Part shown: piece after piece, positions 19,590-50,095 of the stretch | Numbering within the stretch: position 1 is the stretch's first letter | Layout: every line of letters starts with the position of its first letter | Assembly (NCBI GenBank): GCA_949987705.1 | Contig: OX465281.1 | Coordinates: 193,489,112 to 193,553,111, forward strand | From: Thereva unica | Taxonomy: Eukaryota; Arthropoda; Insecta; Diptera; Therevidae | Direction: 5' to 3' | DNA length: 64,000 nt | Position numbers and translations under genes: made by a program | Notes under the pieces: generated by a model | The model's database searches: none | The model's input: the letters and a program-made list of their open reading frames with translations, nothing else | Told to the model about the DNA's origin: nothing

Positions 19590-20803
19590 TCAATTATAAA
19601 ATGAGTCCCTTATTGCATTTCTAATTCTTTTTGCTTCGTCATTGCTGTTCTCTTCTTCTGCTATTGGCTGTAACTCTGCCTCAGTTTGATTTACACATTC
19701 GCTTTCACTTTCCCATTCAATATTGTAAAATACACATATGTTGTGCAATGCGCAACAAACATTTATTATTTGGATTGCCTTTTCGGGACTATAATAAAGT
19801 TCTCTAGCTTGTAAAAGGCACCTAAATCTATTCTTCAACACGCCTATAGTTCTCTCGATGACGTTTCTGGCTTTGGCGTGCTTTTTGTTAAATCTCGTTT
19901 CAGCAGGAGTGCATGGTTCCCGGTAAGGGGTCATGATGAAAGGCCCTAGAGGATAGCCTGCATCTCCTAATATTACGAAATTTTTGTCCCCATTTGTATA
20001 CTGGCCATTTAGGTATGCTCTAGCTTCACTCGTTCTCCAAATGGAAGCATCGTGGCAGGATCCAGGGTGCCTTGCATCTATCACCTGAATGCGCATATTG
20101 CTGTCACATAACTGTAAAAGAAGCTTTACATTACTTTGAAAAATTTATATCGATATTATTTACAATCATTGCATTCAAACTGTAAAAACCTTTTCGGTTA
20201 TAAAAAAGGTGTTTAGCTTCCTTCGGCGCAACAATCTTAATATGTGTACCGTCAATGCAACCTATTACTCTAGGAAACCCACTCCTCTCATAAAAATGTT
20301 GCTTTGTCTTCTGCTTTTCCTCTTCTGACAAAACTATACTTATCCATTTTGAACACAACTTCATCTCCAGAACATTTAAAACTTCGCTGAGCACTTTGCA
20401 AAAAGTGGTCCTTGCAGCTCCGACATCGAATTCGTTGCCAACACCTCGCTGGTAGCCACCTTCGGCAAAGAAGCGAAGAGAAGCAGCTAATTTCAATATT
20501 GGTGGAATTGCGCTGCTGGTATTTATCTCAGCTTCCACTTCATTTAAAATATGAATAAATGCTTCCTTCGATAACCGGAAGAATTCCTTAAATCTAGAAT
20601 AATTCATTTATGAGTATTCAATTTTTGAAATTATTGGAACAAAATATTGTTTACACTTACACTGAAGATGGAAAATCCAAGGGATTGCAGTTATCTCGAA
20701 GGTGTCTACGCTGCCTCCGTAATGCAGTGAATTCTGCCCTACTTTCTTCATTTTCTTCTTCCTCCATTTTTTCTAAATATAAAACCAATAAATTTGGATC
20801 CAT
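19590..20803 (-). CDS. Harbinger DDE transposase (HARBI1-like), three exons, open
   Basis: Proposed exons: 20803-20661, 20593-20164 and 20111-19590, with GT-AG introns of 67 and 52 bp (donors GTAAGTG and GTAAAT, acceptors TTCTAG and TTACAG). They total 1,095 nt, exactly 364 codons plus stop, near the usual 350-400 residues. DDE_Tnp_4 motifs: GCIDGTHIKI (Asp162), VILGDAGYPLGPF (Asp241) and NVIERTIGVLKNRF (Glu277), with RKGFYSLNAM and CALHNICVFY also conserved. The start gives MDPNLLVLYLEKMEEEENEE, then FRLSKEAF after the first intron. No stop or shift is seen, in contrast to its decayed partner, so recent activity is plausible but unproven. Confidence 0.85.
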
Positions 20804-24754: not shown

Positions 24755-25126
24755 TTAAAAAGACTCCTTACTAATGCTAACGCTAAAGACATTAATATTA
24801 TTGTTAACATTAATGAACATGCGGTTTACAGGTTCAAATCTGCCGTAATTTGTATTAGAGGAGTTGATTTGTAAAAGAGGTGGACCTCTCAGATTATAAC
24901 GACTCTCTCTAAACGACGCACGGCGACCTAAAAAACCTGAGTCGACCTTTCCATTAAGTAGCTGATGAACAAATACAACATCGGCCACCTCTCGACACTT
25001 GTGAAGAGAGCTTAAGTTGAGTAACTTAAGCCGGGATTCATATGATGGAAGAACTATTGGGTTTTCCCAAGGAAGATGATTCAGTGCGAATCGAACGAAC
25101 CATCGTTGAACCGATTCAATAGTTCT
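24755..25126 (-). pseudogene. LINE D, ORF2 C-terminus
   Basis: IESVQRWFVRFALNHLPW opens at 25126. It is followed by a leucine-rich stretch, then MADVVFVHQLLNGKVDSGFL, RYNLRGPP and FEPVNRMFINVN, corresponding to the IESVQKKF…NEPVNR C-terminal block of family B. One stop or shift lies near 24990. Confidence 0.75.
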
Positions 25127-25494
25127 TGTTCAAATACTTTCACAGCGAGGAGTTCCCTTTGGTTATCCTTTGAATTTTGTCGGATTAGAATCCAATCACC
25201 GAATCACCTTTAGGGCATTTAATTTTTTATTATTACAGATGAATAACGTTAACTGATGATGATTACACACTTTCGGAACCACTGGATAAGGAAGCTAGGT
25301 CATTTGGCTACTAATGGACATCCATCAAAACATAAACATCATCATATTTGGCCAAGATCGCCACATTAATCATCATCAAATTACATCATCATTAATATAC
25401 TAATATAATTTAGGTTTATTAGAATTAATTTTCAATTTACGATATTCATTCAAAATTTACTCTGGTAACCCCATCACCTCAATACATGCCTACG

Positions 25495-25500
25495 TATAAA
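25495..25500 (+). promoter_or_regulatory. TATA-box-like motif in the LTR-like element
   Basis: TATAAA in the context ACGTATAAATTAG, about 370 bp into the element, followed roughly 25-30 bp later by TCATCGAAGC, a plausible start region. Motif only. Confidence 0.4.
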
Positions 25501-25650
25501 TTAGCATTCCCACTCTTATCATCGAAGCAAAAATCACTTCAAACGTTACGGTTTTCTTTTGTATCCCCACTTGAACTTGAAATTCAAGCAAACGATTAAA
25601 TATTGTTGCGAACGAAACGCTCGCTCTCTCTGCACCGGAGCTTCACCGAG

Positions 25651-25656
25651 GTAAGT
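25651..25656 (+). promoter_or_regulatory. Splice-donor-like site
   Basis: CACCGAG followed by GTAAGT at 25651, just upstream of the hairpin array. A second donor-like ACAG/GTGAGT lies at 25995 after the array, and a polypyrimidine tract with AG at 26646-26647 could be the acceptor. This suggests a spliced leader transcript; unproven. Confidence 0.35.
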
Positions 25657-25714
25657 TGGTCCTGAACTTGTCCCTTTTTCCTCCTTTTCTTTTTTTTCCA
25701 ATACTAACTTTCCT

Positions 25715-25948
25715 CTGTTGTTGGGTTTCGACCAACAACAGATTTATTAATTTTCCTTGTTGTTGGGATTCGACCATCAACAAGGTTTACTAATATTTCG
25801 TTTGTTTTTGGGTTTCGACCATAAACAAACTACTAACCTTTCTTTGTTGTTGGGATTCGACCATCAACAAAGATACTAATATTTACTGTGTTGTTGGGAT
25901 TCGACCATCAACACATTACTTCCTTTCCTTGTTGTTTTCATACAACAG
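25715..25948 (+). repeat. Array of covarying hairpins
   Basis: Five units, at 25715-25741, 25756-25784, 25800-25830, 25842-25872 and 25887-25915. Each has an outer stem, a T·T mismatch (a T-A pair in unit 1), a TGG/CCA inner stem and a 7-nt loop G(A/T)TTCGA. Outer 5' arms are CTGTTGT, CTTGTTG, GTTTGTTT, CTTTGTTG and TGTGTTG, and each 3' arm is the matching complement. Four stem positions change in a compensated way. A sixth, loop-divergent hairpin is at 25929-25948. Spacers are TACTAATATTTC-like, 12-15 nt. Confidence 0.85.
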
Positions 25949-26104
25949 TAATTCCCTTTTTTCATACAAGTTCAAGGTCAACTTTAGAAAACAGGTGAGT
26001 ACCTCATTTTACATGCTGATAAAATTCTATATATTTTTTTTTCTTTTGTTTCTTCTGTGATTCGGTGATTTATTTTACCATTTTTCTCGTTTCTTCGAAA
26101 TTTT

Positions 26105-26465
26105 AAACTTCGCGATTTAGTGAACAACGTTGTAGAGGTGATTTTTGCAATTCGATAATTAATTCATAGCTTACATCGTTGACGAGGTGATGAGATTGAA
26201 TTTATAGTTTTCAACATTGTCGAGGGTGATCCAAATAAATTTTGAGTGAGTCTTCACTTGAATTAATACTTTGTTAAACTTATGACTTGTCAGAAATTTT
26301 ATCCCTTTTATTGTATCTTGAAGTTATTAAGAAATTGAATTATAGTTTCCAACATTGTTGAGGGTGAATTAAGTAAACTTTGATCAAATCGTCATTTGAA
26401 TAAATACTTTGATAAATCTCTAATTTATCAGAAGTTTTGTCCTTTATTGAAATTTGAATTAATAA
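26105..26465 (+). repeat. Degenerate tandem repeat inside the LTR-like element
   Basis: The motif AACATTGTYGAGGGTGA recurs near 26126, 26174, 26213 and 26349. The last two belong to copies of about 135 bp that share blocks such as AATAAATACTTTGATAAA/AATTAATACTTTGTTAAA and TTATCAGAAGTTTTGTCC. Confidence 0.65.
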
Positions 26466-26801
26466 ACTTACTAACTAAATTAATTAACTAAAACTAAATA
26501 ACTAAATTTTGAACTAATTTATATGAAACTTGAATTTTTATTGAATTACTGATATCTTGATTATCATGAATAAATTTGAAATGTTATAATTGAATCCTAC
26601 TTCTTCTTCTTTTTTTTGTTTTTATTTTCTTTACCTTTTTTACACAGGTGTACTGCAGTTAGAGGCGTCCGAGAACTTCCTCTATTCGTTTGAAGTTGTT
26701 AATACAAAAACATATGGTCCTTCGAGCCGGATTAGTTTAATGTGCAACAAAACTCGTACGAGAAATTCCTATATTTTCTAAGGTTTTTTATAACAAAAAC
26801 A

Positions 26802-28959
26802 GTTCTAACATGTGAAGAATAGTGAGGAGACCAAGCCTGGGAGGCATATTCAAGTAATGGTCTGACAAGAGAAATATATAAGTGTTTAGTAACCAACGGG
26901 TTATTAAATTCCTTGGACCACCTTTTTATAAAACCCAAGACTAAACTACATCTGGAAGAGATATAGTAGATGTGAGTGGAGAAATCCAGTTTACTATCAA
27001 ATCTAATCCCGAGATCTTTAATCAAATTAACACGAGGGATACCCTCATCAGAAAAGGTGTAGTTAAAAATTATAGGATCACGTCTCCTACTAAAAGTCAT
27101 GACTTCGCATTTACCAATATTAAGAACCGGGTTGTTGTTAGCACACCAAGAGTAAAAGGTATCAAGGTCAATCTGCAGAAGTTTGCAATCCTCCATACTC
27201 TTTATGTGCCGATAAAATTTGATGTCAACAGCGTAAATCAATATTCTACAGTGTCTTAGTAAGGGAACAATGTCATGAATTGAGAATATAAAGAGGAGAG
27301 GGCCAAGATGACTTCCTTGAGGGACACCGGATGTCGCTTCAATGGTTATTGATTTGGATCCACGAAAACTAACTTGGTAGGTCCGGTCAGTTAAGTAAGA
27401 CTGGAACCATACTAGAAGGGCTTGCGGAAAGCCTAACATTCTTAATTTCAGAATAATAATGGAATGGGAGAGCTTGTCGAATGCCTTACTAAAATCAGTG
27501 TAAACACAATCAGTTTGACAACCGGAAACGAAGCCTTCAACAGCATGAGCAGTGAACTCGAGAAGATTGGTGGTTGTGGAACGAGCTGCAAGAAAACCAT
27601 GTTGATTCGTTGAGATCAGCCTCTTGCAGATAGGAACGAGTGTAGAATAGATAATTGATTCAAAAAGTTTCGGTATAGCAGACAACTTAGCAACTGGCCT
27701 ATAATTCGATATTTCGCTCTTGCAACCACTTTTGTGAATAGGAATTATGAACGAATTCTTCCACAGAGTGGGGAAGTACCCTTTATCCAGGGATTTTAGA
27801 GAAAGGATTTTCAGTGGAGACTGGAGAACCTCCACACAGGCCTTAAGGACAGCAGGAGGAATACCGTCGGGGCCAAAAGTAAAGTCAAATGGAAGATCGT
27901 CAATATGTTTCACGATATCGGCAGTGGTAATTGAGAGAGGTAAAAAATGAGCCTCTCGGTTAGGAATAATGTGACGAAAATTATTGTCGTCAGGCTGAAA
28001 GTCTGCAGATGCGAAAGATTGATGAAAGAATGACGCAAACATGCTGCAAATCGCAGGCGACTCACAGCTAGACCAGTTCTTGTTCTGCATAGTATTAGGG
28101 TAATTATCAACTTTTTTCTTCGAGTTGATAAATTTGAAGAAGTTTCTGGAATCAGTAAATACTTTATTACTCATACTGCTGAGATATTCACGATACAGAG
28201 TGAAAGAGAGTGAACGAAATTGGTTATAGCCAATGATAAATGAATTGAGACTTGGATAAGTTTTCCAGAGCCTATTCTTCTGATTTTCCAAATGCTTGAG
28301 TTCACTATTGAACCAAGGAGGAGAAGTACTGGCCAATTTTTGAGGCTCATAGGGGACGCAAAAACGAGGGCTGCGTATAGTACGCCATAGAACCGTGCTA
28401 CATCGACATCCAACTCGTTTGCGGAAAGTAAGTTGTTGAAATCAACCATGGCAAGTTTAGATGACAGCTCATTAAAGTTAGCCTTTTTAAAGTTAAAGGA
28501 ATAGGTTACCACCTCCGCGCAAGGAGTATTAACTGAATTGAAGCAGTAATTGAGCAAGATAGGAGGGTGGTAATCATCAACAGTGGACATGACTATTGGA
28601 CTGGGTTCAGCAGTCATGTTGACTGAGTCTGTAAAGAATATAAGATCCAACCGCCTTCCTAATACATTAGTCACACCACTCATTTGACTCAAGCCAAGTG
28701 AGAATAAGGAATCGAGAAAACACGATTCCTTAGAATTAAGGCTGCCTTCAGGAAGGTAGTTGTCGTCATCGTCAACATATACCCACTGGATATTGGGTAA
28801 ATTGAAATCGCCTAGAAGAAGTAGCTCATCATTAGTGTTCATCAAGGTCAGAATGTGGTCAACACAAAAGATGAGAATATCATAGAGGTTATTACCTCCA
28901 TCGTCAAGTGTGCTTAACATATCTGGTGGGATATAGCAGCACAGCAGGAAGAGATTCAT
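26802..28959 (-). pseudogene. LINE D endonuclease-reverse transcriptase (inactive)
   Basis: Endonuclease C-terminal half: LLLGDFNLPNIQW and RRLDLIFFTDSVN (28959 downwards). Linker: PPWFNSELKHLENQKNRLW. RT: NYRPVAKLSAIPKLFESIIY, NQHGFLAARSTTTNLLE, CVYTDFSKAFDKLSHS, GVPQGSHLGPLLF, KDLGIRFDSK. The catalytic box reads YAVD (near 27228) rather than YADD, so the active-site Asp is replaced and the protein would be dead even without the frameshift near 28340. The 534-codon RT frame is otherwise open. Confidence 0.85.
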
Positions 28960-29300
28960 TTTAGAAAGGGAGATGAGTGATGAGATCTATTACGAGTACG
29001 TGGAACGAAACGCTTGGTAAGAGCCCCAGCGGGCCAGAAACCAGGGTCTAAGAGAATCTCGGCAGTATTAGGCGGTGCAGACAAAATAAAAGATGCAACT
29101 GGCTTGGAGGCCTTGCTAACCCTTCTACAACGAACTGTTCCGGGGTCTATAGATTTTTTCCTCAAATATTCCCAGATAGACTCCGTCTTAGTCACCGGAG
29201 AGAATCTCGAGATGAAAATACTTAGAGGCTTAGGAACCGTAACAAGAGAAGTGTAAGGCTCAAGAGGGACTATAACTTCGGCAACCGGTGGACCATCCAC
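28956..29300 (-). pseudogene. LINE D ORF1 C-terminal remnant
   Basis: VPKPLSIFISRFSPVTKTES, then KPVASFILSAPPN and LLDPGFWPAGALTKRFVPR. The (L)FVSRFSP…FWPxGxxxxRF pattern is typical of the C-terminal part of ORF1 proteins of insect CR1/jockey-type LINEs. It ends at a stop overlapping the start of ORF2, but the endonuclease frame starts in mid-domain, so sequence is missing at the junction. Confidence 0.6.
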
Positions 29301-29704: not shown

Positions 29705-30300
29705 ATCCAGACAAACAGTTGGTTCAAAAAATCTGCCCTCCCCTCCGTCCCCTTTCACCCTCTTCTCCACAAGCGACGTTTTCAGTCGATTTTTGTTGGT
29801 TGGCTGTTGGCTCGTGTGAAATTGGCCTTGGTAAGGGCGAATAGAAACGATTTCTATTTTTCCTCGAGTTGCAGGAACATTATTATGTATGCCTAACAGT
29901 CAAGCTGTCGGGGTCCGAAGTAGTGTTGGGTAGGACACGATAATAAAATGAGTTTGTAAGAGGAGTCTCTTTTTACTTTTGAACCAGTACAATGTCTCAC
30001 TTCAAATGAGGCGAGGTGCCATTGTATTGCTAGCATGTCACGTAGTTAACGGCTCAAATGTTGCGATGCGGGTAGATCTATTGCGTTTGCGAAAAAGAGG
30101 ATACTGTAAATGATAAATGAATGAATGGAAATATTAATTATCGTGCCTATGAATGTTGATTACAAAAATATTCTTTAAAATTTTTGTTAACTGTATAAAG
30201 AAAAGCATATTTACAAATTTAAAATGAAACTCCCTAAAATTGAAAATAACACGAAAATATTTTATTTGTTACAGATAGAAATTAAAAAAAAAAATAAAAT
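29705..30300. other. No gene recognised
   Basis: AT-rich, with no repeat family or coding frame that I can support. Confidence 0.4.
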
Positions 30301-30305
30301 TTTAG

Positions 30306-31620
30306 CTCCCTCGAAAAATGTTAGAAATATCTCTCCAACTTCACTCCCTCAAAAAATGTAAGAATTGTCTCTTCAGTACAAAATTTGCCTCCCTCGAAAA
30401 ATGTAAGAATTGTTACCTCCCTCGAAAAATGTAAGAATTATCTCTTCAGTACAAAATTCACCTCCCTCGAAAAATGTAAGAATTGTCTCTTCAGCACAAA
30501 ATTCACCTCCCTCGAAAAATGTAAGAATTGTTACCTGCCTCGAAAAATGTAAGAAATATCCCTCGAGCACAAAACTTCACTCCCTCAAAAAATGGAAGAA
30601 TTGTCTCTTTAGTATAAAATGTAAGAGATTTCTCCCAGTTCGTACCCAGCAAACCACATGTAATGCATAACAAAGAAATGCATTCGGCGTACATTACAAG
30701 TAAGCTATTTGAAAGCTATCAATCAGCGACTGCTTACAAGCCTTACAAATACATTACAAGCAATGTATTAAATTATGTTTGGATTCTGGGGATTCATACT
30801 CGTATGAATATATCAAATCAGGCAGTAGCACCGTTATCTTTTCGAGGCACTTTCCGCCGCTAGTAGAAAATTTTTGCTCATTTGTAAGTGTTTGCACCAA
30901 GTGCCGTGCGCATTTTATCCAGTATTGTATTTCAACTATAACGGGGTGAGTAAAGTATAATTATGTTTTATACTTTCTTTACCTAAGATTTAATACATAC
31001 TTATATCAAATTGTGTAAAGATAATCTTTCGAGGCAGATAAATCACATCGTTTAAAATCAATGCATTTCATCCTAGAGCATCCTTAATGCTATACAATAC
31101 ATTTTGTTAGCTTTATGAAATGTCTTTTGTAATGCATTTGCAACATTTATAAAATGTATTTGTAATTTATAATGTATGCATTACATATTTCTATATGAAA
31201 TATATTGTTAATGCATTACAAGCAATGCATTTCATCCTAGGACATGCCTAATGTTTTTTAATGCATTCCGTATTACTTACAAAATGCTTTCTGTAATGCA
31301 TTTCATTCATTTCTGAAATGTATTGTGAATTCATTTTGTATGCATTCGTGGTTTACTGGGTATTTACAATCTCACCACGGCTCGGTTTAAATTGGATATT
31401 TGACTGCGGCAAAAACAGTAAGAAAATATCTCTGCAGTTCGTGTATACAATCTCACCTCGCCGCAATTCGAATTGGATATTTTATTGTCGCAAAAGAAAT
31501 AAGAAAATTTTGTTCCAGTTCGTGTTGACAATCTCACCTCGGGGCAGTTCAGATTGGATATTTTGCTGCCGCAAAAGAAGTAAGAAATGTGTCTTCACTT
31601 CGTAATTTACAAACGCACGA
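30306..31620. repeat. Multi-period tandem array, interrupted by a MITE
   Basis: Left block: CTCCCTCGAAAAATGTAAGA units start at 30306, 30344, 30389, 30417, 30462, 30507, 30535 and 30580, giving spacings 38, 45, 28, 45, 45, 28, 45. Right block: three 81-bp units start ACAATCTCACC at 31366, 31447 and 31528 and contain AATTGGATATTTT...CAAAAGAAGTAAGAAA. Both blocks share the AAGAAATxTCTCTxCAGT core, so the 45- and 28-bp units look like deletion forms of the 81-bp unit. Apparent proteins here are repeat by-products. Confidence 0.8.
30645..31360. mobile_element. MITE rich in AATGCATTAC motifs, TA target
   Basis: 716 bp with ends CCCAGCAAACCAC and the complement of CCCAGTAAACCAC, flanked by TA at 30643-30644 and 31361-31362. 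Its removal rejoins the tandem array (CAGTTCG-TA-TTTACAATCTC). Many copies of ATGCATT/AATGCATTACA in both orientations fill the interior. No coding sequence. TA duplication suggests a Tc1/mariner-like origin, not certain. Confidence 0.75.
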
Positions 31621-49679: not shown

Positions 49680-50095
49680 AAAGGCCCGACCGAATATTAT
49701 GAAATTTTTTTCAGAGCATTTTTTCGTTAATATTCTTTTTTCGGCGCCTCAATGAAGTCGATATAGTTTTTAGTTTGCGCGGTATCGTGCAGGTACAAAA
49801 ATCATAAACGTCGTTTAAACAAAAAAACGGTTCGATCGAATTTTATGAAAGTCTTTTCAGATCATATTTTGGTTAATACTCTTCGAACGGCACGTCAACT
49901 AAGTCAATATCTTTCGTGGTTCAGGCGATATCGTGCAGGTACAAAAATCACTTACGTCGCTTAAACAAAAAAAAAACGGTTCGACCGAATTTTATGAAAA
50001 TCTTTTCAGATCATATTTCGGTTAATACGTCTCGAACGACACCTCAACGAAGTCGATATCTTTTTTGGTTCGCGCGATATCGTGCAGGAAAAATG
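49680..50095. repeat. Three tandem units, about 140-150 bp
   Basis: Each unit contains CGACCGAATTTTATGAAA(A/G) or a close variant, TTTTCAGA(T/G)CATATTT, GGTTAATA, CG(A/C)CACCTCAA, AAGTCGATAT and GCGATATCGTGCAGGTACAA. Units begin near 49687, 49834 and 49979. Confidence 0.7.

Follow-up and report, generated by a model that had tools for sequence, protein, structure and literature searches.

A tandem array of covarying hairpins, a candidate leader RNA signal, in the LTR of a BEL/Pao retrotransposon family of Thereva unica

In the Pao element, tandem copies of R reportedly lie within the long terminal repeat (LTR). Retroviral leaders hold a few distinct hairpins for packaging and dimerisation, the loops of which are thought to be read by Gag; self-complementary kissing loops are present in some retroviruses, and the signals that mark the unspliced RNA are placed just past the splice donor. 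The Su(Hw) insulator of gypsy consists of short repeats in tandem that follow the promoter of an insect LTR; these are sites in double-stranded DNA. To our knowledge, how BEL/Pao LTR retrotransposons select their own RNA has been little studied. Available excerpts of two papers describe clusters of palindromes with the core CGG-CCG upstream of the TATA box in the LTRs of Sirevirus, a Ty1/copia group of plants (PMC2829016, PMC10760457), and the accessible part of a paper on LTR structure refers in general terms to stem-loops within long R regions (PMC3601003). The word 'hairpin' is absent from the main text of a BEL/Pao survey (PMC3118150) and of the Sinbad paper (PMC554778), and searches of the open-licence literature, judged by titles and abstract openings, brought up no description of tandem hairpin arrays with compensatory change in LTR elements.

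The window analysed here is a stretch of 64,000 nucleotides of the T. unica genome (contig OX465281.1). The hairpin array that it contains is borne by a plus-strand LTR with the ends TGTT and AACA and the target-site duplication GTTCT (Table 1), and the 'LTR-like element' of a preliminary description of this DNA is a solo LTR. When the LTR and one copy of the duplication are removed, a continuous minus-strand LINE frame (...SSHV/RTIESVQRW...) is obtained. Identical 5 bp flanks were found at 13 of the 40 loci checked, this one among them, the remaining 27 being paired, truncated, cut or unresolved. The window copy has no genes. Between the LTRs of another copy that has both (C393, pieces L052 and L053) there are matches to DUF1759 (PF03564, 8e-27), the Pao peptidase (Peptidase_A17, PF05380, 2.2e-36), the integrase zinc domain (PF17921, 1.6e-7) and DUF5641 (PF18701, 1.4e-35), and a reverse transcriptase match (PF00078, 1.3e-6) slightly below the cut-off (28.7 against 29.6 bits). 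With these domains between its LTRs, the family that bears the window array belongs to BEL/Pao. Two CCHC-like motifs were seen in one ORF of C393, and a LINE-type endonuclease ORF in the same copy is probably an insertion. A search for the Pao peptidase gave 6593 candidates, of which 150 were scored, a number too large to be of use. The two LTRs of one element (L022/L023) are 99.8% identical, which indicates that the family has moved recently; a second pair (L012/L013) is 97.6% identical, and the other pairs tried, at 64-100% identity, were not clean pairs.

Table 1. Features of the solo LTR and of its insertion site in the window. Motif counts are of exact matches in 60 stretches; CGTATAAA was matched anywhere in the stretch.
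Feature	Position	Strand	Remarks
Host LINE, 3' part, same open frame	24755..25121 (left bound approximate)	-	Frame reads across the joined flanks
Target-site duplication GTTCT, left copy	25122..25126	.	Identical 5 bp flanks
Solo LTR of BEL/Pao retrotransposon, 1675 bp	25127..26801	+	TG/CA ends and 5 bp duplication; open LINE frame across the joined flanks
TATA box, TATAAA	25495..25500	+	CGTATAAA exact in 52 of 60 fetched stretches
Probable poly(A) signal (ATTAAA) of a putative short R	25595..25600	+	GATTAAATATTG exact in 50 of 60 stretches
Donor 1, AG/GTAAGT	25649..25656	+	CACCGAGGTAAGT exact in 57 of 60 stretches
Closing stem, 5' arm, 19 nt, just after donor 1	25653..25671	+	Predicted fold
Hairpin unit 1, loop GTTTCGA	25712..25744	+	
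Hairpin unit 2, loop GATTCGA	25754..25786	+	
Hairpin unit 3, loop GTTTCGA	25799..25831	+	
Hairpin unit 4, loop GATTCGA	25841..25873	+	
Hairpin unit 5, loop GATTCGA	25885..25917	+	
Sixth hairpin, degenerate and weaker, different loop	25929..25948	+	Present in all 51 extracted domains, at most 3 edits allowed
Closing stem, 3' arm, ends just before donor 2	25966..25984	+	Predicted fold
Donor 2, AG/GTGAGT	25993..26000	+	Also present in related families
Acceptor-like site, CCTTTTTTACACAG/G	26634..26648	+	
Primer-binding-site copy within the LTR, TGGTCCTTCGAGCCGGATTA	26715..26734	+	Presumably matches tRNA-Tyr
Host LINE, 5' part, split by the LTR	26807..28986	-	RVT_1 and endonuclease matches

The 3' end of the LTR (26713-26801 in the window) occurs in two forms, the longer of which holds the internal copy of the primer-binding site. 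Two such sites 89-93 bases apart were seen at five of 40 loci (L020, L023, L026, L030 and L031) and again at L068 and L073 among 20 further loci; priming at either site could yield LTRs of two lengths. The LTR also has a second, degenerate repeat at 26202-26445 (two 106-base copies, 77% alike). Elsewhere in the window there are three unrelated tandem arrays (30298-30620, 31365-31587 and 49687-50088, with periods of 118/73/45, 81 and 149, respectively) and, at 19590-20607, minus-strand ORFs, one of which matches the DDE_Tnp_4 transposase.

Five tandem units and a degenerate sixth, as first described, were recovered at 25712-25948. The cores of the five are at 25723, 25765, 25810, 25852 and 25896, with starts 42-45 bases apart, and each unit has a stem of 11-12 bp and the loop G(A/T)TTCGA. 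The preliminary description had the stem changing on both arms together at pairs 5, 10, 11 and 12, counted from the loop. This is borne out at the first three positions: pair 5 is T-A in a single unit and G-C in the other four, pair 10 reads C-G, T-A, T-A, T-A and G-C along the array, and pair 11 is T-A or C-G. At pair 12 the claim holds for three of the five units, G-C or C-G being formed there, and fails for units 1 and 5, which have C.T. Two further features had gone undescribed. Units 2-5 have a T.T mismatch at pair 4, where unit 1 has T-A, and a predicted long-range outer stem, the 5' arm of which overlaps donor 1, encloses the entire array.

Folding of 25650-26000 gave z = -7.28 as RNA and z = -7.23 as DNA, with none of 100 shuffles as good in either case. 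The closing duplex has a predicted energy of -20.8 kcal/mol (shuffles, -10.3 +/- 2.6), and 2 of 1000 shuffles were as good. A chance origin of the hairpins is ruled out by the shuffles of the window folds and of both covariation tests given below. An Rfam scan of the window gave no match above the gathering score and a tRNA search of the window found none. Relatives in prokaryotes or viruses were considered and discarded: the unit pattern has no match in viral contigs, and its three bacterial matches are about the number that we calculate for chance.

Other copies of the family were sought in the 910 Mb genome with a 601-base query, which gave 404 candidates, the best 40 of which were scored. 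Units are present in 59 of the 60 LTR loci compared (59 fetched loci and the window), with 379 units in total and two to nine per locus (two at L060 and L065). Because the query that retrieved 39 of the 59 fetched loci contained the array, this count is biased toward loci having one; among the 20 picked by the LTR start alone, 19 carry units. At L074, the sole locus of the 60 without units, the LTR start matches the family, but about 140 bases beyond the TATA box the sequence becomes unrelated and includes a (TA)n run.

Pair frequencies were taken from the 364 of 379 units in which at least eight of 11 pairs are formed. Pair 1 is G-C and pair 6 is T-A in all 364, and the T.T mismatch of pair 4 is found in 328. 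At pair 5, G-C occurs in 262 units, T-A in 52 and T.T in 46, the last being a shared unit type. Pair 12 is often unpaired. Pair 10 is T-A in 200, C-G in 108 and G-C in 50, and pair 11 is T-A in 240, C-G in 102 and G-C in 14. At 14 loci a unit has a one-base-pair deletion, with one base missing from each arm. The closing stem is predicted in all 51 domains cut from the 60 loci, a count biased by the fact that domains were recognised by end sequences including the 3' closing arm. The expected inner pair was formed by 289 of 336 units in the minimum-energy folds of these domains.

A search of the same genome with pol gave relatives at 98% to 68% identity, the best 53 of 11503 candidates being scored, and stretches of 2 kb, 1.2 kb or 0.8 kb upstream of pol were read for 17 elements at 18 loci. 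Arrays are present in 15 of the 17 elements, at pol identities within the range 68-98%: L078 (98%), L079 and L086 (91%), L080+L095 (88%), L081 (86%), L087 (85%), L082, L089 and L090 (82%), L094 (78%), L083, L091 and L092 (72%), and L084 and L093 (70%). No array was found in the stretches read of L085 (68%) and L088 (85%). In these two, another tandem repeat (CCATGGCGGCCATCTC...) fills the stretch upstream of pol where the others hold the array. A generic hairpin scan of the 18 loci counted 111 hairpins where base-shuffled versions averaged 17.3, with some units missed and some matches outside the arrays. All array data are from one genome.

Across these arrays the stems are mostly 8-14 bp and the loops mostly 7-9 nt. 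The unit is TAGTTCTCGG-GAATAGA-CCGAGAACTA in the 91% class, AGTTCTTGG-GTATAGA-CCATGAACT in the 88% class, CTGTTGTTGG-GTATAGA-CCATCAACAG in the 86% class and TTACTCTCGG-AATTTGT-CCGTGAGTAA in the 82% class; in the 70-72% class it is ATACCTTGTA-(mostly GCTTTCGA)-TACAAGGTAT, in alternation with a second hairpin. The array of the 78-82% class (L082, L089, L090 and L094) is more complex: hairpins of several kinds alternate along it. Five of the six sequence classes have a loop of approximately G-N-(T/A)-T-(C/A)-G-A, many loops of the most distant of them being longer by at least one base; the loop deviates in the 82% class (ATTTGT, AGTTGC). The last unit of L084 (70%) and unit 2 of the window have the same loop, GATTCGA (7/7 identical), and share 2/10 and 1/10 positions in the two arms. 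A T.T (U.U in RNA) mismatch is found at the same place in the window's family, L080, L081, L087 and L082, and in 14 of 21 unit types. Two other properties were considered as explanations and rejected. Self-complementary 4-mers can be seen by eye in some loops (TCGA in GNTTCGA, TATA in GTATAGA), and a kissing-loop dimer cannot be a requirement because the GAATAGA loop of L079 and L086 has none. TACTAAY spacers, as repeated branch-point or acceptor decoys, are common in some families, and L081 has a single one, outside its array.

Covariation was measured on 21 unit types chosen with 7 nt loops, a choice that leaves out the hairpins of the 70-72% class with loops of 8-10 nt. In this set 91.4% of cells pair, and all ten pairs have change on both sides. 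There are 51 cells changed on both sides compared with 14.1 after shuffling, and covariation is 0.692 compared with 0.240 after shuffling (0/500) and at most 0.123 when the arms are slid; related rows inflate such counts, and the slid-arm control preserves relatedness. Further pair types are no more numerous than expected in this set (248/500 shuffles as high). On the plus strand the 21 types have three G.T and no A.C mispairs. The paired stem change pointed out in the preliminary description is seen across copies and families.

Within the window's family, 11 of 21 shared types were used, omitting those with indels or a shifted loop, some rare types and those differing at the last position only. 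These have nine both-side cells compared with 2.9 after shuffling (0/500); neither the number of pairs with two-sided change (47/500 shuffles as high) nor that of further pair types (461/500) is striking in this set. We then compared canonical units, defined as those in at least three loci, with rare ones, the distinct non-canonical units with no more than three differences from a canonical type. Canonical types differ mostly by changes on both arms. In rare units each of the 28 stem changes affects one arm only; 18 break the pair and seven keep it through G.T, and some of these units look like hybrids of two others. Differences between types common to several loci were counted by hand as six two-sided and four one-sided (6/10 against 0/28, Fisher, p = 7.6e-5); a stricter count gave four of ten (p = 0.003). 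Mispairs in the decaying units of the window's family (pairs 1-11) comprise nine G.T and ten A.C, near-equal numbers as expected of neutral change. Rare units may show the effect of mutation in the absence of selection, and paired change in shared types beside one-sided decay is a natural comparison that separates selection from copying between the arms. Unpaired stem changes in other copies, which were proposed at the outset as an argument against a selected fold, do occur, as these one-off changes in rare units and as the type with T.T at pair 5 (46 of 364 units).

As the preliminary description pointed out, the array follows a TATA motif and has a splice-donor-like site on either side, an arrangement seen again in other copies and in related families. 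The array is flanked by GGTAAGT and GGTGAGT in L078, L079, L086, L081, L087 and L095/L080, and in each of these six 0-4 of 500 shuffles gave as good a closing duplex. The four loci tested of the 70-72% class (L083, L084, L091 and L093) keep the array with one GGTAAGT downstream and no bracketing pair; L084 has AGGTAAGG upstream of the array. The conserved TATA box and ATTAAA suggest a short R at about 25525-25620 with the array in U5 after it, limits that rest on motifs; an AATAAA near 26234 is not conserved among the 60 stretches compared. The array would then be transcribed as part of a leader, and its position suggests that it would occur once per genomic RNA, just past donor 1. The donor-1 motif TTCACCGAGGTAAGTTGNTCC has 564 genome matches with two mismatches or fewer. 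Searches of the genome for junctions of spliced LTR copies, from which the leader had been removed, gave no genuine match, compared with these 564 unspliced sites: the single near-match of one search was an unspliced acceptor variant and that of the other was unrelated sequence. The lack of spliced copies would be equally expected if the RNA were never spliced.

We consider it very likely that the RNA structure itself is under selection. Paired change in canonical types, one-sided change in rare ones, the kept loop and the kept U.U mismatch together strongly support selection, in active elements, on a structure that would form in the plus-sense single strand. The preliminary description had left the choice between selection and self-templated repair; the data favour the former. 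Palindromes are prone to quasipalindrome correction, in which one arm serves as template for the other without selection, and copying of this kind, at the level of DNA or of reverse transcriptase, predicts both the paired changes and the co-deletion of one base from each arm. At the DNA level it should also show in rare copies, where none of the 28 changes is two-sided. It should erase the T.T mismatch, which is kept in 328 of 364 units and 14 of 21 types, and the loop is kept even where the stem has been replaced. We therefore regard arm copying as improbable, some chance being left to a variant limited to reverse transcription in source elements. Sites in double-stranded DNA, where each palindrome would bind a dimeric host factor as part of an enhancer or insulator, also fit the data poorly, and we rate them lower still. 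The units are palindromic and tandem and lie in an LTR, as do the palindrome clusters in the accessible account of Sirevirus (PMC2829016). However, they are downstream of the TATA box, and symmetric differences at pairs 5, 10 and 11 between the units of one array have no evident reason if the factor bound has a fixed specificity. The plus-strand mispairs of the 21 types, three G.T and no A.C, show a small bias. Least probable of all is a source or decoy of small RNAs, by which the hairpins would feed or block the host silencing machinery. The predicted structure is strong, and palindrome clusters in LTRs are linked to small RNAs in maize in the available excerpt of one study (PMC10760457). A feature that did nothing but harm, however, would be unlikely to last in active copies. 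The stems, at 8-14 bp, are also shorter than the usual Dicer substrates.

If the RNA structure is selected, its role has two main candidates, of which we rate packaging or dimer selection highest, with control of splicing, export or translation close behind. The latter takes the same selected structure to act at another step. In a splicing version the array, through the closing stem, which overlaps donor 1 and joins donors 1 and 2, would control the choice of 5' splice site; in an export or translation version the array would let the unspliced RNA exit the nucleus or would work as a translation leader. GGTAAGT and GGTGAGT bracketing the array in several families, the overlap of donor 1 with the closing stem and the acceptor-like site downstream all speak for a role of this kind, which we consider a serious possibility. 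The four 70-72% loci that keep the array without the bracketing pair, and the absence of spliced copies from the genome, count against it, neither decisively.

We give a probability of roughly 0.4 to a packaging or dimer-selection signal, that is, a selected array of leader hairpins, probably in U5, in a clade of BEL/Pao elements, read most likely by Gag. In its covarying structure, placed in the 5' leader by motifs, the array resembles a packaging signal of the retroviral type. The two CCHC-like motifs of C393 and the lack of spliced LTR copies beside 564 unspliced donor-1 sites bear on this function indirectly. The array would be read as RNA within the 5' leader, probably in U5, and because it would lie in an intron-like part of the leader, the unspliced genomic RNA would carry it near the 5' end. 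The hairpins may act as a series of docking sites, with the Gag of the element itself as the most likely partner, and docking would lead to the choice or pairing of genomic RNA, with avidity provided by repetition. As units are gained and lost, a new version of the stem could spread through the array. A more doubtful extension is that the array is a family-specific RNA identity tag that evolves in concert, with the loop as the common contact and the stem rewritable, so that each lineage has its own hairpin. Such a homogenised hairpin would possibly coevolve with Gag or escape host small RNAs. As it stands, the array is a defined, repeated and covarying candidate signal in hundreds of LTRs and in several related families of one genome.

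Compared with described systems, the tandem R copies of Pao and the Sirevirus palindromes are partial precedents. Pao is also of the BEL/Pao superfamily and reportedly has tandem repeats in the LTR. The repeat here appears to lie downstream of the short R placed by motifs, in contrast with the tandem R of Pao, and every repeat is a hairpin whose stem changes in pairs; the comparison with Pao is one of arrangement, not of repeat sequence. The gypsy Su(Hw) array is similar in that short tandem repeats lie downstream of an insect LTR promoter, but its repeats are double-stranded DNA sites. Both Sirevirus, as described in the available excerpts, and the present family are LTR retrotransposons with clustered palindromes that have a conserved core (PMC2829016, PMC10760457). 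The array differs from the cis-acting motifs in those excerpts, which are upstream of the TATA box, in that the TATA box here starts at 25495 and the array, at 25712-25948, is downstream of it and mostly between donor-like sites, and also in that the arms covary and the loop is largely kept (PMC2829016, PMC10760457). The hairpins that serve packaging and dimerisation in retroviruses likewise form a structured leader near a splice donor. Whereas those leaders have a few distinct hairpins, the array described here, known from sequence alone, consists of two to nine copies of essentially one hairpin.
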